Virus record (IMG/VR): IMGVR_UViG_3300042566_000967
Location: 1-24,695 of that record
Strand: one strand, 5' to 3'
Source of the DNA: a virus
DNA: 24,695 nucleotides
Shown piece after piece: positions 26 to 13,735 of this stretch. The number at the start of each line of letters is the position of its first letter. The first letter of the stretch is position 1. Below the pieces are notes generated by a model. The model was not told where the DNA came from. It worked only from the letters and a program-made list of their open reading frames with translations, and made no database searches. The position numbers and the translations under genes were made by a program.

Positions 26-784
26 ATGATTTTTCTAAGCAAAAACGGTGCTGATGAATACATTAACCTGCTTGCTCAAGGTCTTGGGCAAACACCTGTG
101 AGCGAGTTTGAGTATGAAGACACTCAAGAGCCTATAGTACTTAGAGGCATACTCAAGCACAAATTAATGAAACGCTGTTGGCAAGATGGCCGTGACTTTT
201 ACTACGTTGACACTGGATATTTTGGTAATGGTCGTTGGAAGCAATGGCACCGCATTGTTAAAAACAATCTTCAACTGACTGAAATACAAACTCGACCAGG
301 CGACAGATGGGAGCGGCACAAGATTAAATTTAGTTCCTGGAGCAAAGGTAGTAAAATTATTGTTGCTGCTCCAGATGAAAAACCTTGCAAGTTCTACAAC
401 ATAAATTTAGATGAATGGATAGCGCAAACTGTTGCTACACTTCAGCAACACACTGACAGGCCTATTGTTGTTAGACAACGTGCTCCAAAGCGCACAGACA
501 GAATATCCACAAATACTTTAGCACATGCCTTGACTGATGCACACGCTCTAGTAACATTCAATTCTAATGCTGCAACTGAGAGCATATTGTTAGGCGTTCC
601 AGTTTTTACTCTAGCTCCTAGTGCTGCTGGACCAGTTGGGTTACAAGATTTGACACAAATAGAAACACCGTACTATCCAAATCAGGATAAATTATATGCT
701 TGGGCATCAAGTCTGGCATACAGCCAATTTCATATTGATGAAATGAAATCAGGAAAAGTTTGGAAAATATTAAATGCAAGTTAA
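26..784 (+). CDS. GT-B-like phage surface-glycan protein, paralog 1
   Basis: 252 aa. First of four related proteins in the window (the others start at 774, 1709 and 8511). The shared C-terminal half has a strand ending in DRPIVVR (residues 144-150), then a TFNSNAATESILLGVPV stretch (about 177-193), and an end of the form LAYSQFHIDEMKSGKVW (about 230-246). An N/S-rich loop followed by a small-residue helix and GxPV resembles the donor-binding side of GT-B capsule-type glycosyltransferases (KpsC/KpsS-like), but that assignment rests on motif resemblance only. It is about 60 residues shorter than paralogs 2 and 3, and its N-terminal half does not obviously match theirs. It also lacks the HP after RPIxxR that the others carry. 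Its end overlaps the next start by 11 bases. Only 25 bases precede it here, so its promoter lies outside the window or it continues an upstream operon. Confidence 0.72.
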   Translation: MIFLSKNGADEYINLLAQGLGQTPVSEFEYEDTQEPIVLRGILKHKLMKRCWQDGRDFYYVDTGYFGNGRWKQWHRIVKNNLQLTEIQTRPGDRWERHKIKFSSWSKGSKIIVAAPDEKPCKFYNINLDEWIAQTVATLQQHTDRPIVVRQRAPKRTDRISTNTLAHALTDAHALVTFNSNAATESILLGVPVFTLAPSAAGPVGLQDLTQIETPYYPNQDKLYAWASSLAYSQFHIDEMKSGKVWKILNAS

Positions 785-1712
785 AACATTTTTAGAAACA
801 GCTGGTAATTTTGAAGAACGAGACATACTCAAAAAATTTTACCAAGGTCTATTAGTAGATCAAACGGTAAATGCAAAAATCAGTTTGGAGTTAAACTACT
901 CTGCTTGCGAAGTTGCAGTGCTTTACGGTAGTTGGAAACCCAGAGACAGAGATTATCATGTGGTTCGAAATAGCATTGTTAATGAAGCACAGGCATTTGT
1001 GGTGATCGAAACCGCATTGTTAACCAGAAAAGTATTTGAAGAAAATCGATACTACAGGATTGGTGTGAATGGATTCTTAAACAACTCGGGCACGTTTACA
1101 AACAATGAAATTGATGATACTCGATTCAATCAACTTGGGCTGTCTTGGCCAAACTGGCAAAACAACCCTGACGGGTATATTTTGTTGATGTTGCAATTGC
1201 CTGGCGATGCCAGTCTTCGGGGAATTGACATATATGAATGGTGCAAGTTTGCTATGAAACAAATTCGTAAAGTGTCAGACAGGCCTATTAGAATTCGATC
1301 TCATCCTCTGCACAAGTCCAAAGAAAATGACGACTTTCAAAAATTTGTTTTTGAGTTGGCAATGAACTCAACTAGCAATATTATGTTTAGTCAAGGCAGC
1401 GAAATCTCTCTTGCAGATGATTTGATGCATGCGTATTGCACAGTTGGATATTCTACTGGAAGCAGTATTGATTCCATACTATGTGGAATTCCTGCAGTGG
1501 CATGTGACCCAGGTAATTTTGCCTATGAAGTCAGCACAAATTTTTTAGATTCTATTGAAGATCTAATACAACCAGATCAATCTGTAATCATGCCTTGGTT
1601 ATACAAATTGGCATACAGTCAATGGACATTAGAAGAGATGGCTAACGGCCAGGCGTGGAAACACATAAAGCCCTTGATAAATTTTAACAATACACCGCGT
1701 AAGAAAAAATGA
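774..1712 (+). CDS. GT-B-like phage surface-glycan protein, paralog 2
   Basis: 312 aa. Shares with its neighbours the sequence DRPIRIRSHPLHK in the middle, a glycine/serine-rich TVGYSTGSSIDSILCGIPAV segment and the C-terminal LAYSQWTLEEMANGQAW signature. The conserved RSHP and the SxGSxxxxxLxGxP loop look like a GT-B C-terminal nucleotide-sugar-binding domain. The N-terminal part (about 1-150) has alternating strands and helices and includes AVLYGSWKP. No signal peptide or membrane segment is visible. Translation is probably coupled to the gene before (11-base overlap) and to the gene after (ATGA overlap at 1709-1712). Specific donor and acceptor cannot be read from the sequence. The alternative is a glycan-binding or processing protein without transferase activity. 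Confidence 0.72.
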   Translation: MQVKTFLETAGNFEERDILKKFYQGLLVDQTVNAKISLELNYSACEVAVLYGSWKPRDRDYHVVRNSIVNEAQAFVVIETALLTRKVFEENRYYRIGVNGFLNNSGTFTNNEIDDTRFNQLGLSWPNWQNNPDGYILLMLQLPGDASLRGIDIYEWCKFAMKQIRKVSDRPIRIRSHPLHKSKENDDFQKFVFELAMNSTSNIMFSQGSEISLADDLMHAYCTVGYSTGSSIDSILCGIPAVACDPGNFAYEVSTNFLDSIEDLIQPDQSVIMPWLYKLAYSQWTLEEMANGQAWKHIKPLINFNNTPRKKK

Positions 1713-2647
1713 AAACTGTTTCGGTTTCGGTATATCATCGAACTGTGCCAAATGTTAAAAATCAAGAAAAAGTTGATGTCTTAAAGTTTTTTTCCAATGG
1801 TGCTGGGCTTGTTGGCGACCAAGTAATTGATGTTCAGGATTTCCATTGCAGATCAACAGATGTAGCAGTAATACAAGGCTGGATAACAAACGATCCAGGG
1901 ACCAAAAAACACCTAGATTTACGCAACAGAGTTATCAAGCATCAACTGGAAAATCACAAGCACGTTGTGGGTATTGATTCCAATGTGTTTTTGTATGCTA
2001 CTCCGGGCAATCCACATCATTATTTGCGATTTAGTTTTAATAGTATATTTCCTGATCAAGGAAACTATTGTGATTCGCTATCTGATCCTGCTCGCTGGCA
2101 AAAGATCAGCCAAGACTTAAACATTTCTCTCAAAAGTTATCGCACATCAGGCGACCATATATTGTTGTTGCTTCAACGCAATGGTGGATGGAGCATGGGC
2201 AGTTTTGATGTGCAAGATTGGTGCAACAATACCATTGTACAACTGAGGAAATATACCAACAGGCCTATTGTGGTGCGAGCCCATCCTGGAGACAAACAGG
2301 CATTGGCTTATCTTAATCCTGCAACCGGCAAGTGTAAAATTCCGTGGAGTCACAACATTCGTTTAAGCACCAATCGTGAGCTGACAGATGATTTAGTCGG
2401 CTGCTGGGCCGCAGTCAATCACAACAGTTCTCCTGTAGTAGGTGCAGCTATCGAAGGCTATCCTATTTTTGTCACCGATCCGGTCAAGAGTCAATGTCGA
2501 GAAATTGCTAATATAGATTTTTCACAGATTGAAAACCCACAATTACCAGACAGACAACAATGGGTGGAAAGATTAGCAATGAGTCACTGGAAGTTTGATG
2601 AGCTGCGCTCGGGTCAAACTTGGGCACACATGCGGAAATTTATTTAG
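1709..2647 (+). CDS. GT-B-like phage surface-glycan protein, paralog 3
   Basis: 312 aa, same length as the gene before and clearly related. It has NRPIVVRAHPGDK in the middle, AAVNHNSSPVVGAAIEGYPIF as the serine/glycine loop, a repeated 'IENPQLPDRQQW' element and a C-terminal LAMSHWKFDELRSGQTW. The N-terminal domain carries AVIQGWITNDP, matching AVLYGSWKP in paralog 2, so the two share the whole fold and not only the C-terminus. It is the last gene of the first rightward group. Its TAG stop overlaps by three bases the stop of the leftward dehydrogenase gene, so the two operons meet tail to tail with no room for a terminator. The function is probably glycosyl transfer, inferred from the loop pattern and the surrounding sugar genes. 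Confidence 0.72.
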   Translation: MKTVSVSVYHRTVPNVKNQEKVDVLKFFSNGAGLVGDQVIDVQDFHCRSTDVAVIQGWITNDPGTKKHLDLRNRVIKHQLENHKHVVGIDSNVFLYATPGNPHHYLRFSFNSIFPDQGNYCDSLSDPARWQKISQDLNISLKSYRTSGDHILLLLQRNGGWSMGSFDVQDWCNNTIVQLRKYTNRPIVVRAHPGDKQALAYLNPATGKCKIPWSHNIRLSTNRELTDDLVGCWAAVNHNSSPVVGAAIEGYPIFVTDPVKSQCREIANIDFSQIENPQLPDRQQWVERLAMSHWKFDELRSGQTWAHMRKFI

Positions 2648-3438
2648 ACTCGCATGCCTGGAAACACAGTGCGTTTGACTTGATCGTTGTCGTGATCAAT
2701 TGTGTCAAACAATTCAAATGGCAACTCTAATTGTTTACACAAATCGGCCATGGCTTTGGTATCCTTGGGCAAACACATACCACCATATCCACGCATGTCT
2801 GGACCGCAATTCAAGTAATTGGAACTTGATGTGCCGCGCAATAAAAATGTGCTTAACACAACGTCATAATCTGAATTTAGCCGATCGCAAATTTCATACA
2901 TCACATTGGCAAATGTTACACGCAGAGCATTAAACGTATTTGAGTAATATTTTAAAATTTCTGCCTCCGTTGGAGTCATTTTTACACGATGCTTGGGCAA
3001 CCATGCATGTGCTTCGCACACTCTATGCCATGCACGTTCACTGGCCACTCCCACAGCCAGCAAGTCATGATTGCGAACAAAGTCTTCCAAGGCACTGCGC
3101 TCACGCAGAAACTCTGGCACAAAACAAATGTCTCGATCCTGATATTGATCAATTAATTTCTGTGTGGTTCCGGGCACACTGGTTGACTTGAGCGCAATCA
3201 CTCCGGTGTATCCAATGTCTTTGAGTCCTTGTATAGTGCCATGCACAATACTTAGATCGCATTCACCATTTGTACCAGCAGGAGTGGGCACACAAACAAA
3301 TACAATTTCTGTGCCTAACAATGAATCAAGGGCAGTTGATAGTTTTGGATCATGTGCCACAACTTCGTGCCCGAGCATTCGAAACCCTTCTCCACAAGCA
3401 GATCCTACCACACCCCATCCAGCAACACCTATTTTCAT
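2644..3438 (-). CDS. UDP-glucose/GDP-mannose dehydrogenase, shortened
   Basis: 264 aa. Family members oxidise the C6 alcohol of an NDP-hexose to a uronic acid with two NAD+. Visible motifs are the Rossmann GWGVVG (7-12), CVPTP (49-53), KSTSVPGTT (84-92), PEFLRERSALEDF (108-120), the active-site Lys in ILKYYSNTFNA (Lys163), and the catalytic cysteine in GYGGMCLPKD (Cys222). It ends about 40 residues after that cysteine, whereas cellular enzymes run to roughly 390-450 aa with a C-terminal UDP-binding domain. That third domain is therefore absent. All catalytic residues I can check are present, and the stop is in a compact gene junction, so this looks like a stable short form and not a frameshift. 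It is translationally coupled (ATGA) to the upstream epimerase gene. The likely product is a uronic acid donor for the adjacent transferases. Confidence 0.88.
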   Translation of the reverse strand: MKIGVAGWGVVGSACGEGFRMLGHEVVAHDPKLSTALDSLLGTEIVFVCVPTPAGTNGECDLSIVHGTIQGLKDIGYTGVIALKSTSVPGTTQKLIDQYQDRDICFVPEFLRERSALEDFVRNHDLLAVGVASERAWHRVCEAHAWLPKHRVKMTPTEAEILKYYSNTFNALRVTFANVMYEICDRLNSDYDVVLSTFLLRGTSSSNYLNCGPDMRGYGGMCLPKDTKAMADLCKQLELPFELFDTIDHDNDQVKRTVFPGMRV

Positions 3439-4313
3439 TTTAAACTTTCTAAAGTTAAACGAATACCCTCGGGCAATGCAATCTTTGCTTCAAAGTCAGT
3501 TAACGAATGAAATTTATCAATTGTTCCACATCGACGTTTTACTGAACCTTCGGGTGCTGGCATACAAACAACATCTCCAGTGATGCCTGCTTCACACAGT
3601 ATTTTGATAGCCAAATCTCGGATTGAAATCTCATCATCAACTCCAATGTTTACAATTTGATTGGCAAAGTTTTCCTCCATGATCACTCGGCAAGTGGCTT
3701 CAATGGCATCCGAAATGTACATGAAACTTCTAGTGTTCTCCCAACCGTGCAATGTTAGGTCACCTGTGAGAGCACGTTCATAAAACTCTGGAATAAAGTG
3801 ATCAACTTGCCCGGGGCCATACACATTGTGATAACGAATGATAGCATACTCCTGACCCAGTTGGGCATGAGCCGCAACACACTGAATTTCATTTACAATT
3901 TTACTGCCACCATAACTCCAGCGTGGATTGGTCACATCACCAACTACCAACGGTACTCGTTCATCTGTGGGCACAGGATAATCAAACAAGTCCACAGCAC
4001 CAGCATAGCTTTCACATGTGCCAGTAAACACAAAACGTTTTACTTGGCCTGCGTATCGGTCCAATAGATATTGAGTAGGTAGCACACTATCACGCACTAC
4101 ATCAAGTGGGCGATTGTAAAAGTGCTTGGTTCCGTTGTGTGCGGCTAGATGAACCACAATGTCCACATCCGGCAATGAATCTACATTTGCTTTTACAGTT
4201 AGATCACATCCATCCGTGCGGTCTGCTCTAACCACTACATGCCCTTGTGCTTCTAAGGCAGGCACAAGGTGTTGGCCAATAAAGCCACTGCTGCCAGTTA
4301 CTAATATTTTCAT
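3435..4313 (-). CDS. NAD-dependent epimerase/dehydratase (extended SDR)
   Basis: 292 aa. Extended short-chain dehydrogenase fold acting on NDP-sugars. TGSSGFIG (7-14) is the GxxGxxG nucleotide-binding motif. HLAAHNG is the usual HLAA strand. FTGTCESYAG carries the active-site Ser/Thr region, and the catalytic YxxxK is YGGSK. RYHNVYGPGQ is the substrate-side motif of UDP-glucose 4-epimerase and dehydratase relatives. I place the start at the ATG at 4313, because MKILVTG is the normal N-terminus and this ATG forms an ATGA overlap with the upstream methyltransferase stop. An ATG 24 bases further upstream would add a nonsense extension. The exact reaction (4-epimerase, 4,6-dehydratase or reductase) is not resolved. 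Together with the dehydrogenase it probably supplies an activated sugar. Confidence 0.88.
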   Translation of the reverse strand: MKILVTGSSGFIGQHLVPALEAQGHVVVRADRTDGCDLTVKANVDSLPDVDIVVHLAAHNGTKHFYNRPLDVVRDSVLPTQYLLDRYAGQVKRFVFTGTCESYAGAVDLFDYPVPTDERVPLVVGDVTNPRWSYGGSKIVNEIQCVAAHAQLGQEYAIIRYHNVYGPGQVDHFIPEFYERALTGDLTLHGWENTRSFMYISDAIEATCRVIMEENFANQIVNIGVDDEISIRDLAIKILCEAGITGDVVCMPAPEGSVKRRCGTIDKFHSLTDFEAKIALPEGIRLTLESLK

Positions 4314-4930
4314 TTGATATTGTACTGCTTTTTCCATTCAAAAAATTCCATTGTTTCAAATGGAACGTCGTTGTTGACATACCAAGTTTCCATATGACTC
4401 CATACTCCTGGATTGCGTTTGCGTTGTGAACAAACATTATATACAGCTACTTTGTAGCCTTGAGTCAGCAAGTAATTGGTAGCAATCACATTGTAATTTA
4501 CGTCTTGGCAATAGAGATCATGTTCAAACGCAATAAAATCAAAAGTCAATCCAGATTCAACTGCTTTTTTAAGTGCGGTAAATGTATTTTCGGGCGGTTC
4601 TATGTCTGCCTGTAAGAAGTTGATGCGGTTGGGCAATCCTTGAGCTTGGGCCGCTGACCAGTAATCAAAGGTAGTGGCATCCTCCCAATAGATATGATTG
4701 GTTCTACAATCAGGCCAGAATGGTTGGTTTCTAGTGTCCAGTTCTAGTCCAAACCCCCGCCATCCCAGTCTTTCCAATGCCACAGTGTTGCTTCTCTGCA
4801 CAGGCTTTTGAGATCCTATTTCTATATAAGTGCCGTTTGGCCCACACAGCCCGTATGCAAACCTGTCTACCTTGGCTTCTGCTGATTTATTGAACGTCAG
4901 GTCTTTGAGTTGATTGAAGTAGAATGTCAT
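4310..4930 (-). CDS. FkbM-like SAM-dependent methyltransferase 1
   Basis: 206 aa. The segment NGTYIEIGSQKPVQRSNTVALE (about 32-53) followed by LGWRGFGLELD (55-65) is the motif I to motif II stretch of FkbM-type methyltransferases. In these the glycine-rich loop binds S-adenosylmethionine and the following acidic residue binds the ribose. INFLQADIEPPENTFTALKK (103-122) and FDFIAFEHD (130-138) give the later strands. FkbM proteins O-methylate sugars or related small molecules. It is clearly paralogous to the gene at 6393, including the EIGxxKPxxxSNTxALE and DIEPPxNTFxALK stretches. It is the first gene of the leftward late operon, with the TATAAATA promoter 17 bases before its start. The natural substrate is probably the glycan made by this locus, which is inferred. 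Confidence 0.8.
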   Translation of the reverse strand: MTFYFNQLKDLTFNKSAEAKVDRFAYGLCGPNGTYIEIGSQKPVQRSNTVALERLGWRGFGLELDTRNQPFWPDCRTNHIYWEDATTFDYWSAAQAQGLPNRINFLQADIEPPENTFTALKKAVESGLTFDFIAFEHDLYCQDVNYNVIATNYLLTQGYKVAVYNVCSQRKRNPGVWSHMETWYVNNDVPFETMEFFEWKKQYNIK

Positions 4931-4946
4931 GGATTTCTTTGTTGGG

Positions 4947-4954
4947 TATTTATA
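4947..4954 (-). promoter_or_regulatory. T4-type late promoter, leftward
   Basis: TATTTATA on the plus strand reads as TATAAATA on the minus strand, an exact match to the T4 late promoter box recognised by the gp55 sigma factor. It lies 16 bases upstream of the leftward methyltransferase start codon, leaving room for a short leader. It should drive the three-gene leftward operon. Confidence 0.75.
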
Positions 4955-4956
4955 GT

Positions 4957-4964
4957 TATAAATA
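4957..4964 (+). promoter_or_regulatory. T4-type late promoter, rightward
   Basis: Exact TATAAATA, 26 bases before the ATG at 4991, which also has an AAAAAGG ribosome-binding site. It is separated from the leftward late box by only two bases (TATTTATA-gt-TATAAATA). It should drive the rightward GT-GT-methyltransferase-GT operon. Confidence 0.78.
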
Positions 4965-4990
4965 TATGTAGTTAATTAAAAAGGTTACAG

Positions 4991-5740
4991 ATGACAATTC
5001 ACGTTTACACATCACAAAGTATTGATTATTTCAATGACATTGGCAAATACAGTTTGGCCAGCGTATTAAAATTTCTTCCTAGCGACACAAAAATTACAGT
5101 CACTACAGAAGATTTTGACAAGTGGCCCAAATTGAATCCTAGAATCAATCTAGTTGATTTGTACAGTCTCAACAACGGGTTTAAACCGTTTGAAGATCGC
5201 TGGCAAGGTAAAATCATGCAGAAGGTTATTAGTTTTGCCAAAAAAGGCTATACTGTGTTGGAAGGAACAGAACACAGTGCTGCTGATACCATGATATGGT
5301 TAGATGCTGATGCGTTCATCAAACGTTCGCTTGATGAAGCGTTTTTTAGAAAGTTGTTAAATGGCAATCTATCAGCACACCTAGGCGTCACACACGACAG
5401 CGGCGAGTTTTGTGTTGAAAGTGGTTTCTTTGTATTTGATCTAACACATCCAGGCCGCAGTGATTTTGCTAGAATCTATCGAGACTACTATGACAATGAT
5501 CGCATGGAAGGCATGGGTCGTTTTTATGACAGCAACGTGCAAGGGCATGTGGTCAAAGATTGCGAAAAATTAGGAATTACATTTACAGAAATGAATCTCC
5601 GTCAAAAAGGCAATACACCCATTCGTGGCAGCATGGTCAACGACGACGTGGGACACTTCAAAGGAAAAATCAAACGCCAAGCCGAAGAATTGTACGAAGA
5701 ATTTGTCATTAAAGATTATGTCAGTCAGGTGCTTGCATGA
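4991..5740 (+). CDS. GT-A-like glycosyltransferase 1 (DxD)
   Basis: 249 aa. MIWLDADAFI places a DxD-type metal/nucleotide-sugar motif at D105-A-D107. CVESGFFVFD (141-150) is the GT8/GT-A-like strand that follows, and GHFKGKIKRQ (221-230) is the C-terminal HxKGxxK element that usually coordinates the diphosphate. The order of these three elements is that of GT8-like transferases. No membrane segment is seen, so it is likely cytoplasmic. The start is supported by AAAAAGG 7 bases upstream and by the late promoter before it. It is first in a tightly coupled four-gene operon (ATGA to the next gene). The 6983/7007 gene is its nearest relative in the window, sharing WLDAD and a similar length. Donor and acceptor are unknown. 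Confidence 0.8.
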   Translation: MTIHVYTSQSIDYFNDIGKYSLASVLKFLPSDTKITVTTEDFDKWPKLNPRINLVDLYSLNNGFKPFEDRWQGKIMQKVISFAKKGYTVLEGTEHSAADTMIWLDADAFIKRSLDEAFFRKLLNGNLSAHLGVTHDSGEFCVESGFFVFDLTHPGRSDFARIYRDYYDNDRMEGMGRFYDSNVQGHVVKDCEKLGITFTEMNLRQKGNTPIRGSMVNDDVGHFKGKIKRQAEELYEEFVIKDYVSQVLA

Positions 5741-6396
5741 CACATGACATAACATGGATCACAAGCTTCAGCCAAGTTTATTTTGACTCTGTAGCAAAAT
5801 ATAATTTACCTGGCTGGTCAATGCTGGAAGGTCACAAAATTGCCATGACTGAAAACATGCCAGGGTTTTCTTATCCAGGACTTGAAGTCATTGATGCAAC
5901 TCCTGCATACCCAGATCCCAATGATCCACACTTTGCTCTTGGTGGCACTAAAAAGGGCAAGTTTTGGCGCAAAGGCAAGTGTTTTTTGTGGGCCATTCGT
6001 AATGCCAAAACACGTTGGGTGATTTGGCTCGACAGCGATGTTAAAGTTCTAAACCCCATTGACTTGAGTCGCTTCTGGCCTAGAGAAGGAGATGTTGTGA
6101 GTCTCATCTGCGGAAATCTCAAACAGGCAGAATCTGGTTTTGTTATTGTAGATACCCACCATCCATTGTTTAGGCAATGGACTGATGAATACGAACAATG
6201 CTGGTACAACGGCATTGTTGATACACTACATCGTCCCTGGGATAATGATGTGTTGTGGTATGTGTGTAAAAAATTACCACATCGCAATTTAAGCAAGAGT
6301 GTAACAAAAAGTCCACAAGGATTTGAGGACACAGACTTATTGGATTACATGTACCACTATTCGGGTAAACGTCAAAAAGATCTGGTGCGAGCATGA
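5737..6396 (+). CDS. GT-A-like glycosyltransferase 2 (DxD)
   Basis: 219 aa. RWVIWLDSDVKV gives the DxD motif at D99-S-D101. QAESGFVIVDTHHPLF is the post-DxD strand shared with the other GT-A-like genes, RPWDNDVLWYV lines up with the usual D-N-D acceptor-side segment, and YMYHYSGKRQKDL is the C-terminal HxSGKR element. The N-terminus ITWITSFSQVYFD matches ITSFDQTYYD of the 7007 gene, so the two are paralogs. Start and stop are fixed by ATGA overlaps on both sides. Probable cytoplasmic sugar transferase acting with the methyltransferase encoded next. Specificity is unknown. Confidence 0.78.
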   Translation: MTHDITWITSFSQVYFDSVAKYNLPGWSMLEGHKIAMTENMPGFSYPGLEVIDATPAYPDPNDPHFALGGTKKGKFWRKGKCFLWAIRNAKTRWVIWLDSDVKVLNPIDLSRFWPREGDVVSLICGNLKQAESGFVIVDTHHPLFRQWTDEYEQCWYNGIVDTLHRPWDNDVLWYVCKKLPHRNLSKSVTKSPQGFEDTDLLDYMYHYSGKRQKDLVRA

Positions 6397-7010
6397 AGCC
6401 ACAACTATTAGCCTCTAAAAAACGCAGTCAGGCATACCAAGAATTTTTTGCCTTTAGCATTGGTGGCCCAAACAAAACCTATATTGAAATTGGTGCTTTT
6501 AAACCAGCAACCAAAAGCAATACCTATGCACTAGAAGTTGATCAGGGTTGGCGCGGATTTAGTATGGAACTAAATCAAAAATACAAAGGACATTGGGAAC
6601 AATGCTTAGAACGTCACAATCCTGTGTGTTGGGAAAATGCTATTACATTTGATTACCTTGCACAAATTGAAAAAATGAACTTGTCTCGGCGCATTACTTT
6701 CCTCAGTTGCGATATTGAACCACCTAGCAACACATTTGCCGCGCTAAAACGTGTGATAGAACAAGGCATTGAGTTTGATTGTATTTGTTTTGAGCATGAC
6801 AAGGCAAATCCCAGTAACAAAGATACCACTGACTATGATCCTATTGTGCGTGAATATTTGGCAGGCAAAAGTTACAGGGTAGCAGTCAGTGATGTTTATT
6901 GTAACAACCAAAAAGACTACTTGTTTGAAACTTGGTTTGTAAAAAATGACGTTGACTATCCGCCTACACAGACATTTGATGAGTGGAAAATCTGGATGGG
7001 CCTGGTATGA
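6393..7010 (+). CDS. FkbM-like SAM-dependent methyltransferase 2
   Basis: 205 aa, paralog of the leftward methyltransferase at 4310-4930. It shows NKTYIEIGAFKPATKSNTYALE then GWRGFSMELN, ITFLSCDIEPPSNTFAALKR, FDCICFEHD and a closing ETWFVKNDVDYPPTQTFDEW that aligns with ETWYVNNDVPFETMEFFEW in paralog 1. The acidic residue after the second strand is N here (MELN) where paralog 1 has D (LELD), a change at the usual ribose-binding position. It lies between two DxD transferases, with ATGA overlaps at both ends, so stoichiometric coupled translation is likely. I infer methylation of a sugar in the same glycan. Having two copies in opposite operons suggests two methylation positions or two glycans. 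Confidence 0.8.
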   Translation: MKPQLLASKKRSQAYQEFFAFSIGGPNKTYIEIGAFKPATKSNTYALEVDQGWRGFSMELNQKYKGHWEQCLERHNPVCWENAITFDYLAQIEKMNLSRRITFLSCDIEPPSNTFAALKRVIEQGIEFDCICFEHDKANPSNKDTTDYDPIVREYLAGKSYRVAVSDVYCNNQKDYLFETWFVKNDVDYPPTQTFDEWKIWMGLV

Positions 7011-7717
7011 ACATTGAAGTAATTACCAGTTTTGATCAAACGTACTATGACATGATTGGATATGCCTGTGTGGACACTTGGTTGCAGTATTGGCCTGACG
7101 ATTTGATTCTTACTTGTTATGTAGAAAATATGACCTTGCCCGAAAACTCACGCATTCGTCAAATTCCATTTGAAGAACTAGGTACATCGTATGTGCAATT
7201 CCAGCAGAGTGATGAAAGTGATCGTGTAAAAACTTTTTCTAAAAAAGCCTATTCAGTCATGCATGCGTTTGAAAATAGCACAGCAGATTTGATTATTTGG
7301 TTAGATGCAGATGTCATTACAAAACAACTATTGCCTCGTGAAGTGTTAGAATCATTGTGTTCCAACGCACAAATGGCAGCATACATGGCAGTAGATCATG
7401 ACGGATGGTACAGTGCTGAAACAGGTATTTTTGCAGTTAACACACGCCATGTTGCATTTAAAAAATTTGCTTCAAGATATCGTGAACGTTATGACAATCA
7501 TATCAAACATGATTTAAGACGTTTTTACGACGGAGAAGTGTTCGGTGCTGTGGCAAAAGAATTTAGAGCTCGGCCACATCAGTTTGAAATGAACGACTTA
7601 TGTGGCAAGTTTACAAAGGCTTATAAAACACCAATGAAACACACTGTTTTTGGAACGTTTTTGCATCACTACAAAGCCAAACATTCCAAAGCAGCTTTTG
7701 TAGCTCAGGTCCAGTAA
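7007..7717 (+). CDS. GT-A-like glycosyltransferase 3 (DxD)
   Basis: 236 aa from the ATG at 7007, which I choose because it forms an ATGA overlap with the methyltransferase stop and gives the normal MNIEVITSFDQTYYD start. An ATG 24 bases upstream is out of pattern. IIWLDADVI puts DxD at D100-A-D102. SAETGIFAVNTRH is the following strand and FLHHYKAKHSK the C-terminal HxKxKHSK element. RRFYDGEVFGAV matches GRFYDSNVQGHV in the 4991 gene, so these two are close paralogs. It is last in the late operon. Its 3' end runs 13 bases into the 3' end of the leftward gene at 7705. Function is probable sugar transfer to the surface glycan. Confidence 0.8.
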   Translation: MNIEVITSFDQTYYDMIGYACVDTWLQYWPDDLILTCYVENMTLPENSRIRQIPFEELGTSYVQFQQSDESDRVKTFSKKAYSVMHAFENSTADLIIWLDADVITKQLLPREVLESLCSNAQMAAYMAVDHDGWYSAETGIFAVNTRHVAFKKFASRYRERYDNHIKHDLRRFYDGEVFGAVAKEFRARPHQFEMNDLCGKFTKAYKTPMKHTVFGTFLHHYKAKHSKAAFVAQVQ

Positions 7718-8499
7718 GATTCTGTGCGTTGAATTTTTAAATCTTTAGCTTTGCTTTTACCCAGTGTTTTACGATCACCTTTTAAGTGATCTAGGTATGC
7801 ACCCCAGGCTGAGTTAATTAGGGGATGTCCTTCACCTGTGATCAAATGGCTTGACCAATCAAGCTCTTGTAATGGCAAATGTTTTCTCACAGCATCAAAC
7901 ACAAACGAGTCGTGCCATTCTGCTAGTGTAAAAATGCCCTGTTCGGCATCATCATAATAGCGTTGAAACTGTGTTAAAAAATCTCTTGTGCGTTGACTGC
8001 GCAAATTCATTGCATACAACCCACATTCAGTATATTTGCCACGCCGCCCCAAGAAACAAAGATCTTGATCTGCAGGGCATAGTCCATCCAAGTCATCAAC
8101 TGAGATAGGGCTATGACATACTGTGTCTGCATCCATCCAGATTAACCAATCAGTATCAATGTGTTTGGCACAGTGAAAAATACTGTAGACCTTGTGGGCA
8201 AATCTCACGGCGTCCCATTTGAATCCTTTGCCTGCATCCTTACGTTGCGATCTAACTGGATCAGCACTTACATCACCATTGGCCCTGGGCACACCCTGCC
8301 AACATTGTTTGAATGCAGTGAGTTCATTGACCACAGAGATGTCACGTACTACTAGATTGGGCGCTGTTTCTTGTACGCTACACCCTTCTGCATACACAAC
8401 CAAACTGACAGGCCACGTTTGCAAAAACGTTTGAATCATGCGGCGGCCGTACTTTGCATAACCATCCGCGTTGAAAGTGGTAATTACAGTGTATTTCAT
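7705..8499 (-). CDS. GT-A-like glycosyltransferase 4 (DxD), leftward
   Basis: 264 aa. DWLIWMDADTVCH gives DxD at D123-A-D125. FLGRRGKYTECGLYAMNLRSQRTRDFL is the post-DxD region, WHDSFVFDAVRKHLP the acceptor-side segment, and YLDHLKGDRKTLGKSKAKDL the C-terminal HLKG/basic element. It opens with YTVITTFNADGYAKYG, matching the ITSF start of the other GT-A-like genes. It is a lone leftward gene between two rightward groups. Its start is 11 bases from the rightward gene at 8511, so the short gap must hold any promoter for both; I see no convincing box there. It converges with the gene ending at 7717, overlapping by 13 bases. Confidence 0.8.
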   Translation of the reverse strand: MKYTVITTFNADGYAKYGRRMIQTFLQTWPVSLVVYAEGCSVQETAPNLVVRDISVVNELTAFKQCWQGVPRANGDVSADPVRSQRKDAGKGFKWDAVRFAHKVYSIFHCAKHIDTDWLIWMDADTVCHSPISVDDLDGLCPADQDLCFLGRRGKYTECGLYAMNLRSQRTRDFLTQFQRYYDDAEQGIFTLAEWHDSFVFDAVRKHLPLQELDWSSHLITGEGHPLINSAWGAYLDHLKGDRKTLGKSKAKDLKIQRTESYWT

Positions 8500-8510
8500 C
8501 TCACATACTT

Positions 8511-9359
8511 ATGATCAATAACGTAGCCTATTTTCCTTCTCAATGTGCTCAAAACTCTAGACCCATAATGAGTGCGGTACTGGATCTCTTGCAATCTCGG
8601 GGCATACAAACACAAGAAAACTCCATGACTGCTGATGCGGCCATAATTTGGTCAGTATTGTGGGCAGGGCGCATGGCGCCTAATCAAGCTGTATACGAAC
8701 ACTACCGCAGTCAAAACAAACCAGTAATTATTTTGGAAGTTGGTGCGTTGTATCGTGGGCAAACTTGGAAGGTAGCCGTAAACAACATTACCAGTGCAGG
8801 ATACTATGGACACACGGAAAATTTAGATTGGGACCGTCCTCGAACATTGGGAGTCAGCCAAGCCATAACTTTTAACTCCAATCCTGGGGTGGTTATTGCT
8901 GCCCAACATGCCCGCAGTTTGCAAGTGGCAGGTATTGACATGACACAGTGGGTGTTGGATCAAATCAAATTAGTACGTCGACATACAGATCGCCCAATCA
9001 GTGTGCGTCCGCACCCACGCAACAGATTGAATGTAAGTCAATTGCCACCAGATGTCAAGATAGAACAGCCACATCCTGTTGCTGACACCTACGACAGTTT
9101 TGACATGCGATTTAATTATCATGCGGTGGTCAATTACAATTCAGGACCAGGAGTACAAGCAGCCATTGCTGGATGCAGACCTATAGTGCATGAATCAAGT
9201 TTGGCTGCACCTGTTGGCATGACTATAGCTGATATAGAAAAACCATACGATATCAATCGAGATCAGTGGCTGGTAGAGATCTGCCACACTGAATACACAC
9301 TAGATGAATTGCGTAAAGGAACATGGCTAAAAAGAATAGAACCCGCACTGATCAAATGA
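8511..9359 (+). CDS. GT-B-like phage surface-glycan protein, paralog 4
   Basis: 282 aa, fourth member of the family that opens the window. It shows DRPISVRPHPRNR, AVVNYNSGPGVQAAIAGCRPIV, AAPVGMTIADIEKPYDINRDQW and the C-terminal CHTEYTLDELRKGTW. The loop VNYNSGPGxxAAIAG is very close to VNHNSSPVVGAAIEG of paralog 3. The N-terminal VIILEVGALYRGQTWKVAVN and GITSAGYYGH-type region matches the VGxDSNVFLY / IETALL region of the others. It sits away from the other three copies, next to GT-A-like genes on both sides. There is no clear Shine-Dalgarno before the ATG. It is coupled by ATGA to the following transferase. Confidence 0.72.
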   Translation: MINNVAYFPSQCAQNSRPIMSAVLDLLQSRGIQTQENSMTADAAIIWSVLWAGRMAPNQAVYEHYRSQNKPVIILEVGALYRGQTWKVAVNNITSAGYYGHTENLDWDRPRTLGVSQAITFNSNPGVVIAAQHARSLQVAGIDMTQWVLDQIKLVRRHTDRPISVRPHPRNRLNVSQLPPDVKIEQPHPVADTYDSFDMRFNYHAVVNYNSGPGVQAAIAGCRPIVHESSLAAPVGMTIADIEKPYDINRDQWLVEICHTEYTLDELRKGTWLKRIEPALIK

Positions 9360-10063
9360 CCGACTGCGCTTGCGTTATTCACGGAACTGGTTACGACTGG
9401 ATATATGTCGAACGGCTGTACAACATGTTGAATCGACGACTGAGCGGCGGTTGTAGAATGCATGTTTACACAGAACATGATAGGTCAGTGCCCCCGCACA
9501 TGATCAAACACTGTTTAGAAGAATGGAAAGGCATAAGTGGACCAAAAAAATCTTGGTGGTACAAAATGCAGTTGTTTAATCCTGAACACTACCAAGGCAA
9601 CTTGCTGTATTTTGATTTGGACGTTGTGATCAATGGAGACATCACGTGGATCACACATCTTGACACAGAAAAGTTCTGGACCATAAAAGATTTTAGATAT
9701 TTGCAACACCCCACATTGTCGGGCATCAACAGCAGTATCATGTGGTGGAATGTAAACCGCTATCAATATGTATGGGAAAAATTCAAATCTGAGGATGTGA
9801 CCAAAGTTGTGCGCCAGTATCATGGTGACCAGGACTACCTTAACGCTGTTATTGACTACAACAATCGCAGATACCTTGACGTCAATCGAATCAAAAGTTA
9901 TCGCTGGGAGATTGCTGATGGAGGTTTTGCCTTTCCCATGCGTGTGCCTCGCTCACCAGGTGCAGGTGCAGTGATTGACTCTGACACTTGTGTTATGGTG
10001 TTTCACGGTCACCCCAAGCCACACGAAGTACGTGATCCTAAAATTGTACAACTTTGGGTTTAG
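9356..10063 (+). CDS. GT-A-like glycosyltransferase 5 (DLD, HGHPKPH)
   Basis: 235 aa from the ATG at 9356, chosen because it overlaps the upstream stop as ATGA. An in-frame ATG at 9323 would add 11 basic residues. LLYFDLDVVING holds the DxD (D87-L-D89), HGDQDYLN (156-163) is the acceptor-side D-Q-D segment, and VFHGHPKPHEV (216-225) is the C-terminal diphosphate-binding element. This set differs from the WLDAD group in the window and matches a second type of phage-encoded GT-A-like transferase. SINSSIMWWN-type residues follow the DxD domain. It is the last gene of the sugar locus, and the first TTGACC promoter of the next region begins 11 bases after its stop. Confidence 0.78.
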   Translation: MTDCACVIHGTGYDWIYVERLYNMLNRRLSGGCRMHVYTEHDRSVPPHMIKHCLEEWKGISGPKKSWWYKMQLFNPEHYQGNLLYFDLDVVINGDITWITHLDTEKFWTIKDFRYLQHPTLSGINSSIMWWNVNRYQYVWEKFKSEDVTKVVRQYHGDQDYLNAVIDYNNRRYLDVNRIKSYRWEIADGGFAFPMRVPRSPGAGAVIDSDTCVMVFHGHPKPHEVRDPKIVQLWV

Positions 10064-10073
10064 TTTTGATCGG

Positions 10074-10102
10074 TTGACCAATAATTGACGTTTTGCTATA
10101 AT
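10074..10102 (+). promoter_or_regulatory. sigma70-like early promoter P1
   Basis: TTGACC (10074-10079), 17-base spacer, TGC-TATAAT with the -10 at 10097-10102. The TG one base before the -10 makes it an extended -10 promoter. The start codon is 26 bases after the -10, with AAGGAG in the leader. It shares TTGACCAATAATT with P2 and P3. Confidence 0.85.
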
Positions 10103-10128
10103 TAGGACTTAGCAACAAGGAGTCCTCC

Positions 10129-10335
10129 ATGGGGTACAAGGTTATTGAAGTTGATGCCATGCGTGACAAATACGGAGCCCGTGCAGGACTAGAAGGTCCG
10201 TTCAACTTCTCTGGCCGAGTGCTATACTACGACCCCAAAGAGGGCGCCTACTATGACCCCCGCACTGACTTCTACGTGAGCCAAGCAGAAATGGATGTGC
10301 TCAACCAACAATTTTACGAAATCTTAAAAAGGTAA
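10129..10335 (+). CDS. small conserved-looking phage protein, 68 aa
   Basis: 68 aa, tyrosine-rich, with no recognised domain. The central part reads FNFSGRVLYYDPKEGAYYDPRTDFYVS, where YYDP occurs twice nine residues apart, suggesting a small beta-rich fold. No signal peptide or membrane segment. It has its own strong promoter (P1) and a clear AAGGAG ribosome-binding site 10 bases upstream, so it is almost certainly expressed early. It is followed after 5 bases by the GGCT-fold gene, probably in the same transcript. Function is unknown. Confidence 0.75.
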   Translation: MGYKVIEVDAMRDKYGARAGLEGPFNFSGRVLYYDPKEGAYYDPRTDFYVSQAEMDVLNQQFYEILKR

Positions 10336-10340
10336 TACTT

Positions 10341-10754
10341 TTGTTATACTTTGCTTATGGAATGAACACCAACCGTGAAGGCATGTCTTCTCGCTGTCCG
10401 GGCGCACTGAGCTTGGGCCACGCACGCCTGATTGATCATGCCTTTCGCTTTGCCATTCATGCTGATGTAGTGCCATGCAAGGGCTCCTATGTGGATGGTG
10501 TGCTGTGGCGCATTGACGAGTTTCATTTGAACAGTCTGGACAATCTAGAAGGCTTTCCTTGGTACTATAATCGCGGACAATTTGCAGTGGAACATCGTGG
10601 TGAAGTGTTTGTTGCAGAGTGTTACTTCATGCAACCAGGCAACGAGGACAGCCTGCCCAATCAAAGCTATTTTGACATGGTGGTGCAGGGTTATGAGCAA
10701 CATGGCGTGCCCACAGAACAAGTGTTTAACTCTGTATACGATAGTATTACATAA
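10341..10754 (+). CDS. gamma-glutamylcyclotransferase-fold (AIG2-like) protein
   Basis: 137 aa with a TTG start. The N-terminus MLYFAYGMNTN is the YFAYGSN motif of the GGCT/AIG2 family, and LDNLEGFPWYY places the family's catalytic glutamate at Glu70. The family cleaves gamma-glutamyl-amines or gamma-glutamyl-amino acids to 5-oxoproline. The TTG at 10341 is supported by AAAAAGG (10326-10332) at normal spacing, and no in-frame ATG occurs until after the motif. An ATG at 10357 is out of frame. It lies in the P1 transcript. Canonical Ser in YGSN is Met here (YGMN), a change in the substrate loop. The substrate in infection is unknown; possibilities are glutathione-related or gamma-glutamylated polyamine or base compounds. 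Confidence 0.82.
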   Translation: MLYFAYGMNTNREGMSSRCPGALSLGHARLIDHAFRFAIHADVVPCKGSYVDGVLWRIDEFHLNSLDNLEGFPWYYNRGQFAVEHRGEVFVAECYFMQPGNEDSLPNQSYFDMVVQGYEQHGVPTEQVFNSVYDSIT

Positions 10755-10773
10755 CCCGCCAACTTATCGGGAC

Positions 10774-10802
10774 TTGACCAATAATTTCCAATCTGCTACA
10801 AT
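10774..10802 (+). promoter_or_regulatory. sigma70-like early promoter P2
   Basis: TTGACC (10774-10779), 17-base spacer, extended -10 TGC-TACAAT (10797-10802). It is 28 bases before the ATG of the two-TM protein. The first 19 bases, TTGACCAATAATTTCCAAT, are identical to P3. Confidence 0.85.
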
Positions 10803-10829
10803 AGTGGCATACAAAGCAAAAAGGATTAT

Positions 10830-11054
10830 ATGAATATTCGTGTTAAAGCCGCAGTCAGAACCGTGTTGATCCTCAGCGGATTTGCATTAGTTAGTATTGC
10901 AGTTCAATTAATACTAAAGTATACACCTCCAGAAATGATAGCGCCTGCTTTGGCTACTGTGGCCATTGGGGCAATGGTGTATCTTCTGTATACTATAGTA
11001 TTAGGGCAGATTCGCTCGGAAGAAATACTTAAAGCACTCAACACTAAAGGTTGA
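10830..11054 (+). CDS. small two-TM membrane protein
   Basis: 74 aa. Two hydrophobic helices are predicted by eye at about residues 11-29 (TVLILSGFALVSIAVQLIL) and 38-58 (APALATVAIGAMVYLLYTIVL), with a basic N-terminus (MNIRVKAAVR) and a charged tail. By the positive-inside rule both ends face the cytoplasm. It has its own early promoter (P2) and an AAAAAGGA ribosome-binding site. Its stop codon overlaps the -35 of the next promoter. No family is recognised. Early small membrane proteins of phages often act on the host envelope (exclusion, lysis timing), but nothing in the sequence settles that here. Confidence 0.75.
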   Translation: MNIRVKAAVRTVLILSGFALVSIAVQLILKYTPPEMIAPALATVAIGAMVYLLYTIVLGQIRSEEILKALNTKG

Positions 11055-11079
11055 CCAATAATTTCCAATTTGCTATAAT
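11051..11079 (+). promoter_or_regulatory. sigma70-like early promoter P3
   Basis: TTGACC (11051-11056), 17-base spacer, extended -10 TGC-TATAAT (11074-11079). The -35 overlaps the stop codon of the preceding membrane-protein gene. It leads to the AAA+ ATPase with a leader of about 40 bases and an AAGGAG site. Confidence 0.88.
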
Positions 11080-11124: not shown

Positions 11125-12153
11125 ATGAGTGCAATTCGTATCGTTCGCGGCGTTTACCGCAACAAAACTGTTCAAAATCAAGTGTTCACTTTGGTGAGCG
11201 GATTTCAAACTGGTGCCAAAGGTGGCTATGTCACCGTGCAAAATGATGGTACCTTTCCTAACTGCCCTGATGCCATCCGCATCAAGGTAGAAAACATTTC
11301 AGACATTGAGTATACTTCAGGAGAGCATGTGCAAGAAAATACTGTGAAATTCAAACCCACTGTGGTGGCAGAGACTGATGAACAAGCCATGGACCGTATC
11401 CGTGAGCGTTTTGACATCCTGCATGAGATGACCAAGGCCTGTGTGAGCGGCGACATTCGTGCTATGATTGTGAGTGGCCCTCCGGGCGTGGGCAAGAGCT
11501 ACGGCGTGGAGCAAGAGATTGACAAGGCCTGTTTGTTTGACAAGCTGGCCAGCAAACGCCTTAAGGCTGAAGTTGTTAAAGGCTCAGCCAGCCCTATTGG
11601 CCTGTACCAAACCTTGTACAAGTATTCAGATCCCAATTGTGTGTTGGTATTTGATGACTGCGACTCAATCCTGTTGGATGACGTTGCACTGAATTTGCTG
11701 AAGGGTGCCTTGGACTCCGGCAAGAAGCGTAAGATTTCCTGGTTGTCGGACAGTCGCGTTTTGCGAAGCGAAGGCATTCCAGACAGTTTCGAGTTCAAGG
11801 GTTCGGTAATTTTTATTACCAACTTGAAGTTTGATACCATGCGTTCGCAGAAACTGCGGGACCACTTGGATGCATTGCAAAGCCGATGCCACTACTTGGA
11901 CTTGACACTTGACACCATGCGTGACAAGGTCCTGCGTATCAAGCAGATTGCCAAGGACGGTGTGTTGTTTGCAGACTATGACTTTGACGAGTGTGTGCAG
12001 GACGAGATCATTGCCTTCATGGACGAGAACAAAAATCGTCTGCGTGAGATGAGTTTGCGTATGGCTCTTAAGATTGCAGACTTGCGCAAGATGTCAGTGT
12101 TAAACTGGAAGCGTCTTGCAGAGACCACTGTTATGAAACCCGCAGGAGCCTAA
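11125..12153 (+). CDS. AAA+ family ATPase
   Basis: 342 aa. The N-terminal part (1-80) is beta-rich (SGFQTGAKGGYVTVQNDG) and unlike any domain I can name. The AAA+ core follows: Walker A GPPGVGKS (118-125), Walker B VLVFDDCD (173-180), sensor 1 in VIFITNLKF (Asn233) and a candidate arginine finger in ALQSRCHYL (Arg254). The all-helical lid lies at about 260-335. Clamp-loader and Cdc48-like ATPases share this layout, but gp44-type clamp-loader motifs are not evident. It is preceded by its own strong promoter P3, so it is made early and at high level. Two small genes follow immediately. Its partner and role (remodelling of a host or replication protein) are not shown by the sequence. Confidence 0.88.
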   Translation: MSAIRIVRGVYRNKTVQNQVFTLVSGFQTGAKGGYVTVQNDGTFPNCPDAIRIKVENISDIEYTSGEHVQENTVKFKPTVVAETDEQAMDRIRERFDILHEMTKACVSGDIRAMIVSGPPGVGKSYGVEQEIDKACLFDKLASKRLKAEVVKGSASPIGLYQTLYKYSDPNCVLVFDDCDSILLDDVALNLLKGALDSGKKRKISWLSDSRVLRSEGIPDSFEFKGSVIFITNLKFDTMRSQKLRDHLDALQSRCHYLDLTLDTMRDKVLRIKQIAKDGVLFADYDFDECVQDEIIAFMDENKNRLREMSLRMALKIADLRKMSVLNWKRLAETTVMKPAGA

Positions 12154-12536: not shown

Positions 12537-12570
12537 GACAGGTACCCTTAAAAAAGGTACCTGTCTTTTT
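12537..12570 (+). terminator. intrinsic terminator after the AAA+ operon
   Basis: GACAGGTACC (12537-12546) and GGTACCTGTC (12556-12565) form a perfect 10-bp stem with a 9-base A-rich loop, followed by TTTTT (12566-12570). The last two T residues are also the first bases of the next promoter's -35, so termination of one unit and initiation of the next are fused. Confidence 0.88.
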
Positions 12571-12597
12571 GACTTTTATTTGTGCATGTGCTACTAT
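12569..12597 (+). promoter_or_regulatory. leaderless-type promoter L1 (radical SAM operon)
   Basis: TTGACT (12569-12574), 17-base spacer, extended -10 TGC-TACTAT (12592-12597). Only 7 bases separate the -10 from the ATG at 12605, so the expected +1 falls at or within a base or two of the start codon. There is no room for a Shine-Dalgarno. Confidence 0.72.
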
Positions 12598-12604
12598 ATA
12601 CACA

Positions 12605-13735
12605 ATGCCTTTTTGTTTTTCTCCTTGGACCAATATTGATGTCAGCCCCGTGGGTGACATTGCTCCTTGTTGTAAATTTATTACCGAGTCCTACAATCAA
12701 AAATTCAACATCAGTGAACACACTGTACACGATTATCGTGGCAGTGCTTTTTTGCAATCCGTACAACAAGATTTTCGTGCAGGGCAGTGGCCTGCAGGTT
12801 GCACACGATGCCAGATTGAAGAACAAAACAAAATTCAAAGCAAACGCCAATTGGATTTTGACCGTTGGCAATCACATTATATTGCCTACAATCTTGAACA
12901 AGATGGGTTTGTAACAGCCAGTATTGCATTTGGTAATACTTGTAATCTCACATGCATCACATGCAATCCTTATAGTAGTAGTCGTTGGCGGCATGAGTAC
13001 CAAACCATTTATCTCAAAGACGTAAAGAATTTTCATTTTTACAAAGATGATTTTGTGCAGGACTTGGTACAGTCGGCACCACATTTAGTACACATTGACA
13101 TACCTGGTGGCGAGCCATTTCTAAGTGGTGTTGCAGAACAGCATGCATTGTTGCAACACTATGTTGACACCAACCAAGCTAGTAACATTACACTGCACTA
13201 TACCACCAATGTGACCACTTATCCTAATCAGGAATGGTGGAACTTATGGCAACACTTCAAAGAAGTTGACATGCAGTTGAGCATAGATGGTGTGGGCGAA
13301 CGCTACAACTATATTCGTTATCCAGGTGACTGGGATCAGATACAGCCAAATATCCAAAGATATTTGGAGTGCCAAACTCTGCCAAATTTTTGTCTCAGCG
13401 TGAGTCACACTGTGAGTGCGTACAACATCTATTATCTTGACGAATTTTTTACGTGGTGTTATAATACAGCACTGCCTACGCCTTGGTTGGGTCGTGTACA
13501 CAATCCTGCGCACATGCGGCCTAGTGTGTGGCCAGATTGTGCAAAAAAAATCATAATTGAAAAATTAAAAACCAGTGCGTACAAGAATGTACAACCTTGG
13601 GCAGAGTTATTAACACGCACCGACGACAGTGGGGTTTTTGAAGAATTTAAAAACAAGTTACATGCGCATGATCAATTTCGTGGACTTGACTTCAAAAAAA
13701 CTTTTCCAGAATTATCTAAATTTATTATATCATGA
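12605..13735 (+). CDS. radical SAM protein with N-terminal twitch/SPASM-like cluster
   Basis: 376 aa. The canonical radical SAM motif is CNLTCITC (Cys113, Cys117, Cys120), which holds the 4Fe-4S cluster that cleaves SAM. IPGGEP (167-171) is the GGE motif binding the SAM amino group, and LSIDG lies on a later strand. Before the core is a second set of cysteines: Cys4, Cys22-Cys23 (DIAPCCKF) and Cys66-Cys69 (CTRC), typical of a twitch/SPASM auxiliary cluster, but N-terminal instead of C-terminal. I start it at the ATG at 12605 because MPFCFSPW is the usual opening of this type and because the promoter leaves no room for the longer reading from 12569. It is coupled by ATGA to the 2OG-oxygenase-like gene. 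Substrate unknown; a peptide, sugar or nucleotide modification is possible. Confidence 0.9.
   Translation: MPFCFSPWTNIDVSPVGDIAPCCKFITESYNQKFNISEHTVHDYRGSAFLQSVQQDFRAGQWPAGCTRCQIEEQNKIQSKRQLDFDRWQSHYIAYNLEQDGFVTASIAFGNTCNLTCITCNPYSSSRWRHEYQTIYLKDVKNFHFYKDDFVQDLVQSAPHLVHIDIPGGEPFLSGVAEQHALLQHYVDTNQASNITLHYTTNVTTYPNQEWWNLWQHFKEVDMQLSIDGVGERYNYIRYPGDWDQIQPNIQRYLECQTLPNFCLSVSHTVSAYNIYYLDEFFTWCYNTALPTPWLGRVHNPAHMRPSVWPDCAKKIIIEKLKTSAYKNVQPWAELLTRTDDSGVFEEFKNKLHAHDQFRGLDFKKTFPELSKFIIS

Follow-up and report, generated by a model that had tools for sequence, protein, structure and literature searches.

Small accessory genes headed by copies of one extended sigma70-type promoter in a clade of uncultured phages, some of them jumbo-sized

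Three promoters within one kilobase of an uncultured virus record belong, as judged by sequence comparison, to a repeated class of sigma70-type promoters shared by a clade of uncultured phages, part of which are jumbo-sized. In the variable gene array that contains them, comparison of relatives shows that most of the small accessory genes have their own promoter copy, and that the boundaries of the gene units lie at the promoter. This arrangement probably reflects the shuffling of cassettes by recombination at copies of a promoter class that host sigma70 reads, with the consensus kept by soft selection together with exchange.

The stretch of DNA analysed (the window) is a virus record of 24,695 bases (24.7 kb), with tailed-phage replication genes for a UvsW-like helicase, a primase and a DnaB-like helicase. 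For the two helicases and an AAA ATPase-like gene, each taken singly, relatives are found among T4-like and jumbo phages. The phages considered here are presumably freshwater phages, an impression given by the collection. The variable array lies entirely on the + strand between two anchors, a glycosyltransferase-like gene on the left (family A, 9323..10063; phrog_1962 glycosyltransferase, E 1.5e-26) and the AAA ATPase-like gene on the right (11125..12153; phrog_1250, E 2.9e-84). Beside the array, window positions 26-10063 are dense in glycosyltransferase-like and nucleotide-sugar genes (UDP-glucose dehydrogenase-like, epimerase-like), and a radical SAM/SPASM-like gene is located within the phage replication region at 12569-13735.

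Between the anchors, promoter P1 (10074..10102; TTGACC, 17 bases and TATAAT, with TGC), found by pattern scan and matched in relatives by corresponding promoters before gene B, heads unit B, a 68-aa ORF (10129..10335; phrog_13298, E 3.3e-11). An OCRE match of this ORF is probably spurious and was discarded. Behind B follows unit E, a gamma-glutamyl cyclotransferase-like ORF (10341..10754; PF06094, phrog_2520) that is without its own promoter in the window and has one in the related loci L184 and L185. Promoter P2 (10774..10802; pattern scan and relatives), whose -10 element TACAAT is retained in close relatives, is adjoined by a weak stem-loop, CCCG...CGGG (10755..10771), and heads unit D (10830..11054), a hydrophobic 74-aa ORF for which a family match was sought and none found. 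The stop codon of unit D overlaps the -35 element of P3 (11051..11079; pattern scan), which in turn heads the AAA gene and is predicted to start transcription at A 11086, inside a conserved CATA.

A search of the window with TTGACCAATAATT-N(6-12)-TAYAAT gave exactly three matches, P1 to P3, all on the + strand, and 100 dinucleotide shuffles of the window gave none; the three near-identical promoters in one kilobase described in the first-pass annotation are therefore borne out. All three spacers are 17 bases long and end in TGC. The first 19 bases of P2 and P3 are the same, and P1 has 13 in common with the pair. This match, together with near-perfect neighbouring promoter copies in some relatives, is what a recent local duplication of promoter-gene units would leave. 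In the window, however, P1, P2 and P3 have unrelated flanks and head unrelated genes, and the lack of common flanking sequence around P2 and P3 indicates that this pair is not a recent duplication. Moreover, close relatives have a counterpart of each promoter before the same gene with different spacer letters, and the exact identity of P2 and P3 is peculiar to the window phage, the counterparts differing in L170, L173 and L180. Recent duplication as the source of P1-P3 is accordingly disfavoured and seems very improbable.

When viral contigs were searched with TTGACCAATAAT-N11-TAYAAT, at least 120 stretches matched, compared with 16 for a scrambled-spacer control. A promoter of this class usually heads a single small gene. 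The class consensus is GG-TTGACC-AATAATTCCCAATTTGC-TATAAT-A..rCATA. Among the matches listed, 142 sites (near-duplicates included) were aligned, and these display a conserved GG before the -35, the letters T/C/C/C/A/A/T in the spacer, TGC, and A...rCATA after the -10. In these aligned sites the A of CATA lies 7 bases past the -10, where transcription is expected to start. To avoid query bias, later site sets were picked by sigma70 letters only. A site of the form TTGAC-N15-TGN-TAYAAT is present in 20 of 21 parent records, and in four contigs of 300-345 kb the core-chosen sites number 10, 23, 22 and 29, on one strand in each, with 0-1 in reversed-pattern controls. The core-chosen promoters near the AAA gene (at most 1 mismatch) retain the spacer consensus: of the 189 counted, 175 have A at -26, 180 have T at -15 and 183 have G at -14, a further 2 of 191 having been excluded from these columns because the next ORF is >150 nt distant. 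The spacer likeness beyond -35 and -10 that the first-pass annotation singled out is thus conserved in relatives; identity confined to this one locus, which it had named as the finding that would contradict its reading, is not what was seen.

The near-consensus -35, TGn and -10 elements of the class promoters stand at the preferred spacing; a spacer of 17 bases is strongly favoured, as in 56 of the 66 forward sites of contig G004. From these near-perfect elements, the host RNA polymerase with sigma70 would be expected to read each unit's own promoter, to start at the A of CATA, and to do so early in infection, the class promoters being putative early promoters. A search for the Rpb2 (RNAP beta-subunit) domain gave no match in four of four large records; this disfavours recognition by a phage RNA polymerase and is only consistent with reading by the host enzyme. 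The class motif was also considered as a host motif, and one scan of bacterial genome contigs returned 8 scattered matches in unrelated bacteria, so the motif is not that of one sequenced host group. A T4-type late motif, TATAAATA, occurs in three contigs 8, 7 and 8 times in the forward and 4, 5 and 1 times in the reverse orientation, which is a weak signal.

Contig G004 (locus L145) holds a cluster of 38 tRNA genes at ~282-297 kb, and the promoters there are mostly of the TTGACA type and mostly lack the class spacer. The spacer consensus is hence a property of the class and not general to sigma70 promoters. Because the class is distinct in this way, there is some room for a regulator, that is, a phage or host protein that reads the spacer and switches the class apart from other sigma70 promoters. 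In the consensus, CCAAT recurs at a 10-bp step by our reading, but no palindrome is visible.

Eighty loci with the AAA gene were gathered, and promoter positions were taken from 74 of these and the window, the other 6 having a partial gene or <300 bases upstream. In the listed loci a sigma70-type promoter, mostly of the class type, lies 56-75 nt before the AAA gene start. Omission of 5 more loci with <1000 bases upstream left 69 loci and the window, 70 in all, for comparison of the array, and removal of near-duplicates reduced these to 62. The last 1.6 kb upstream of the AAA gene contains 1-5 core-type promoters across the 70 loci, and at least 3 in 52 of them. Family A is present in 56/70 loci, family D in 16/70, and family B, more frequent than any other small-ORF family in the array, in 45/70. 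Between gene A and the AAA gene the small ORF families are arranged in numerous different orders, and the units are mostly separated by a promoter. Across the 62 non-redundant loci, 34 different orders of units occur; a tree of their AAA genes requires at least 39 layout changes, and the neighbour of the AAA gene changes on it at least 19 times. Array families turn up again in other parts of whole contigs: in G004, at 60-86 kb from the AAA gene, the array families V and f30 lie behind class promoters and family E lies behind another sigma70-type promoter. In three contigs the ORFs that directly follow class promoters have median lengths of 71.5 to 125 aa, compared with 144-168 aa for all forward ORFs of at least 60 aa (by crude ORF calling).

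The junctions between gained or lost units and their surroundings were located by comparison of relatives. When eight close relatives are aligned, one extra block of promoter, leader and ORF C stands out in L173 and L180; it is absent from the window, L170, L172 and L177. This block starts at GGTTGACC after gene D and stops immediately ahead of the AAA promoter's GGTTGAC, and in L180 the promoters flanking the extra unit are alike over 49 bp with 1 mismatch, 41 bp of which are exact. Locus L178, which is without the D unit, has a promoter of chimeric appearance, its upstream flank being P2-type (78% to L173 P2, 33% to L173 P3) and its downstream flank P3-type (97% to L173 P3, 58% to P2). Such a switch of partner is not confined to L178. 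At 26 of 191 promoters the upstream flank is common to one partner that is unlike downstream, and the downstream flank to another that is unlike upstream; control points lying 150 nt downstream and 120 nt upstream of these promoters gave 0/191 each.

Pairwise homology between loci also tends to end at promoters, in counts for which the locus pairs are not independent and the conserved leader may inflate downstream similarity and carry alignments to the promoter. Of 930 left ends, 86.7% are located in the interval -40..+60 around a promoter, compared with 23% (maximum 40%) for rotated promoters. Right ends are less sharp, 49% of 683 lying near a promoter against 23% (maximum 42%) after rotation, and in the narrow zone -12..+35 they show no excess (7% versus 11% rotated). 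The gene content of close relatives therefore differs by units bounded at the repeated promoter, from which exchange itself would be the natural reading. The first-pass annotation had proposed a cassette mechanism tied to recent duplication; the cassette part is supported, since promoter-gene units are gained, lost and reordered while the anchors stay fixed and the unit boundaries lie at the promoter, and the duplication of P2 and P3 falls away. Clustering of junctions at promoters could nevertheless arise simply because only intergenic insertion is tolerated.

The likeness of the spacers was next considered within and between phages. Promoters of different units within one phage are closer to each other than permuted ones (5.49 versus 6.13 differences, sd 0.12, 0/2000). 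Taken alone, likeness within a locus may be a lineage effect, or a lineage-specific consensus. In addition, exact in-register runs of at least 20 bp are shared by 25 of 129 pairs of neighbouring promoters and reach 55 bp, the control maximum being 7; neighbouring promoters are identical over 55 bp in L198 and over 51 bp in L207. Likeness within a phage combined with such long exact runs fits an exchange of sequence between copies.

Orthologous class promoters of two genomes, G002 and G003, differ at 1/198 core positions (0.5%), at 23/324 spacer positions (7.1%) and at about 7-9% of flank positions. Spacer divergence keeps pace with that of the flanks, which rules out strict purifying selection on every spacer base, and positions -28, -19 and -18 change most often. 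However, the changes that do occur shift the fit to the consensus little (3.1 versus 9.0 for random changes, 0/1000; 3 of 53 orthologous pairs were omitted from this test on account of gaps). A consensus-keeping bias of this kind was not seen at 32 other core-matching sites. The spacer, changing at the flank rate and yet in a consensus-compatible manner, thus drifts freely among acceptable letters under a soft constraint, and this drift speaks against a strict operator. The likeness of the spacers would then stem from a soft constraint, on DNA shape or promoter strength, or from repeated copying from sister promoters.

These data bear on the protein that might read the spacer. The soft constraint on spacer letters leaves room for such a regulator, the second proposal of the first-pass annotation, but the rate of spacer change relative to flanks and core, and the particular mutability of -28, -19 and -18, mean that it is not needed, and we regard it as improbable. 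A stronger rival holds that the consensus is purely a promoter optimum, namely a very strong promoter for the host polymerase of the kind that T4 uses early, with which each accessory gene must be equipped, and that units move into intergenic space by illegitimate recombination in which the promoter plays no part. The consensus-keeping substitutions in G002 and G003 are what this rival predicts, and spacer sequence can change promoter activity or strength, according to a passage of PMC2613000. T4 early promoters likewise join near-consensus -35, TGn and -10 elements to a consensus extending beyond these (PMC2988021); the class promoters differ from them in having no clear UP-element-like signal, with a weak upstream T bias only. 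Set against this are the exact repeats of 41-55 bp that run through the leader, the chimeric L178 promoter and the likeness within phages, all of which suggest exchange, and so a pure optimum appears unlikely, although it is the most serious of the rivals.

Hairpins were examined as a further possible component of the units (n=180, since 9 promoters with an unclustered ORF were excluded from the similarity and hairpin counts). A terminator-like hairpin lies within 60 nt upstream of 60 of the 180 promoters, compared with 21 in the control; the upstream fold energy overall equals that of an ORF control. Relatives have a stronger stem-loop before P2, its stem reaching 7 bp in L175 and L176. Just before many array promoters there are hairpins that recur, AAAAGTAATACTTTT and AAAAACCCTGC..GCAGGGTTTTT, for example at -302 in L190 and -366 in L236, relative to the AAA start. 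Inside the class-promoter spacer there is no hairpin (mean -0.5 kcal/mol, the lowest of 180 being -4.8). The upstream terminator-like hairpin is optional and does not define the units.

Promoter-early stem-loops (PeSLs) are reportedly found in the T4-like phages RB49/phi1, PST/T4 and nt-1/KVP40 (work attributed to Arbiol et al. 2010 and Comeau et al. 2014), and their cassettes are said to involve promoter mini-circles produced by exchange between neighbouring copies. The comparison made here draws on one passage of PMC4503421 and on a direct scan of RB49 and phi1. In that passage, relatives among PeSL phages differ through promoter-bounded gene gain, loss and replacement (PMC4503421). Our scan found 13 core-matching sites in RB49 and 10 in phi1, on one strand in each. 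Several RB49 sites have a strong hairpin inside the 17-base spacer: six of the 13 RB49 29-mers fold at -12 kcal/mol or lower, and the RB49 mean is -7.5. Hairpin-spacer promoters of RB49 (NC_005066) at 115005, 117137, 117381 and 121708 are without counterpart among the phi1 sites listed, which is consistent with cassette insertions or deletions between RB49 and phi1. Both systems place repeated sigma70-type promoters, strong by sequence, between small accessory genes and show promoter-bounded gene turnover. The present class differs in its promoter sequence, in its partly jumbo-sized contigs and in the position of hairpins, which lie in the spacer in RB49 and upstream, where present, here. An obligate composite of promoter and stem-loop, that is a PeSL proper, is ruled out, since spacer hairpins are absent and upstream hairpins accompany only about one-third of promoters. 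With no PeSL spacer hairpin and dispensable upstream hairpins, the class promoters would work in a PeSL-like manner with one defining feature missing.

Morons of lambdoid phages are small genes with their own promoter, and sometimes a terminator, inserted between phage genes. The units described here share these traits, including the sometimes present terminator, but differ in that one promoter sequence heads many unrelated arrayed units and marks their boundaries, and in that the terminator is optional. Cultured jumbo relatives are linked to the window by the DnaB-like helicase (PA5oct, SCTP-2, XaC1, Atu_ph07 and Phosso) and, for PA5oct, also by the AAA gene. Among the sites listed for seven cultured genomes (these five, a Vibrio phage and Cronobacter phage S13), all linked by the AAA or helicase gene, inspection by eye found the spacer class absent. 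Salicola phage SCTP-2 (MF360958) has its own near-identical repeated promoter, approximately TTGACGAGGGTAATATTTATAGATATAAT, at 110337, 240648, 415109 and 423867, which suggests that other jumbo phages keep repeated promoters of their own. Among the papers listed by literature searches, none describes the class promoter.

The reading that we favour, cassette shuffling at a host-read promoter class, can be put in mechanistic terms. Promoter copies that are alike over 20 to about 60 bp would act as short homologies for recombination, which would insert, delete or swap promoter-ORF cassettes without disturbing expression; the junctions are observed, and the recombination is what they point to. Neighbouring units open with nearly the same sequence, and a crossover between two promoters would therefore add or remove exactly one promoter-ORF unit and leave a working promoter in place, as far as static sequences allow this to be judged. 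Two processes may each contribute to keeping the extended consensus: soft selection, acting on DNA shape or promoter strength, and exchange among the copies themselves. It is possible, albeit doubtful, that the promoter is kept alike genome-wide as a recombination handle, an integrase-free, integron-like arrangement in which a standard promoter serves as the exchange site of each accessory gene. If so, newly arrived genes would be expressed on arrival.

Overall, the cassette reading, as supported by these comparisons, would extend promoter-mediated gene shuffling, known from cultured T4-like phages, to an uncultured clade common in viral metagenomes, in which many loci are available for reading junctions. 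One genome that holds promoters with and without the spacer consensus makes the role of the spacer testable. The extended promoter may also provide a simple tag for rapidly exchanged accessory genes, possibly including genes for host takeover and counter-defence.
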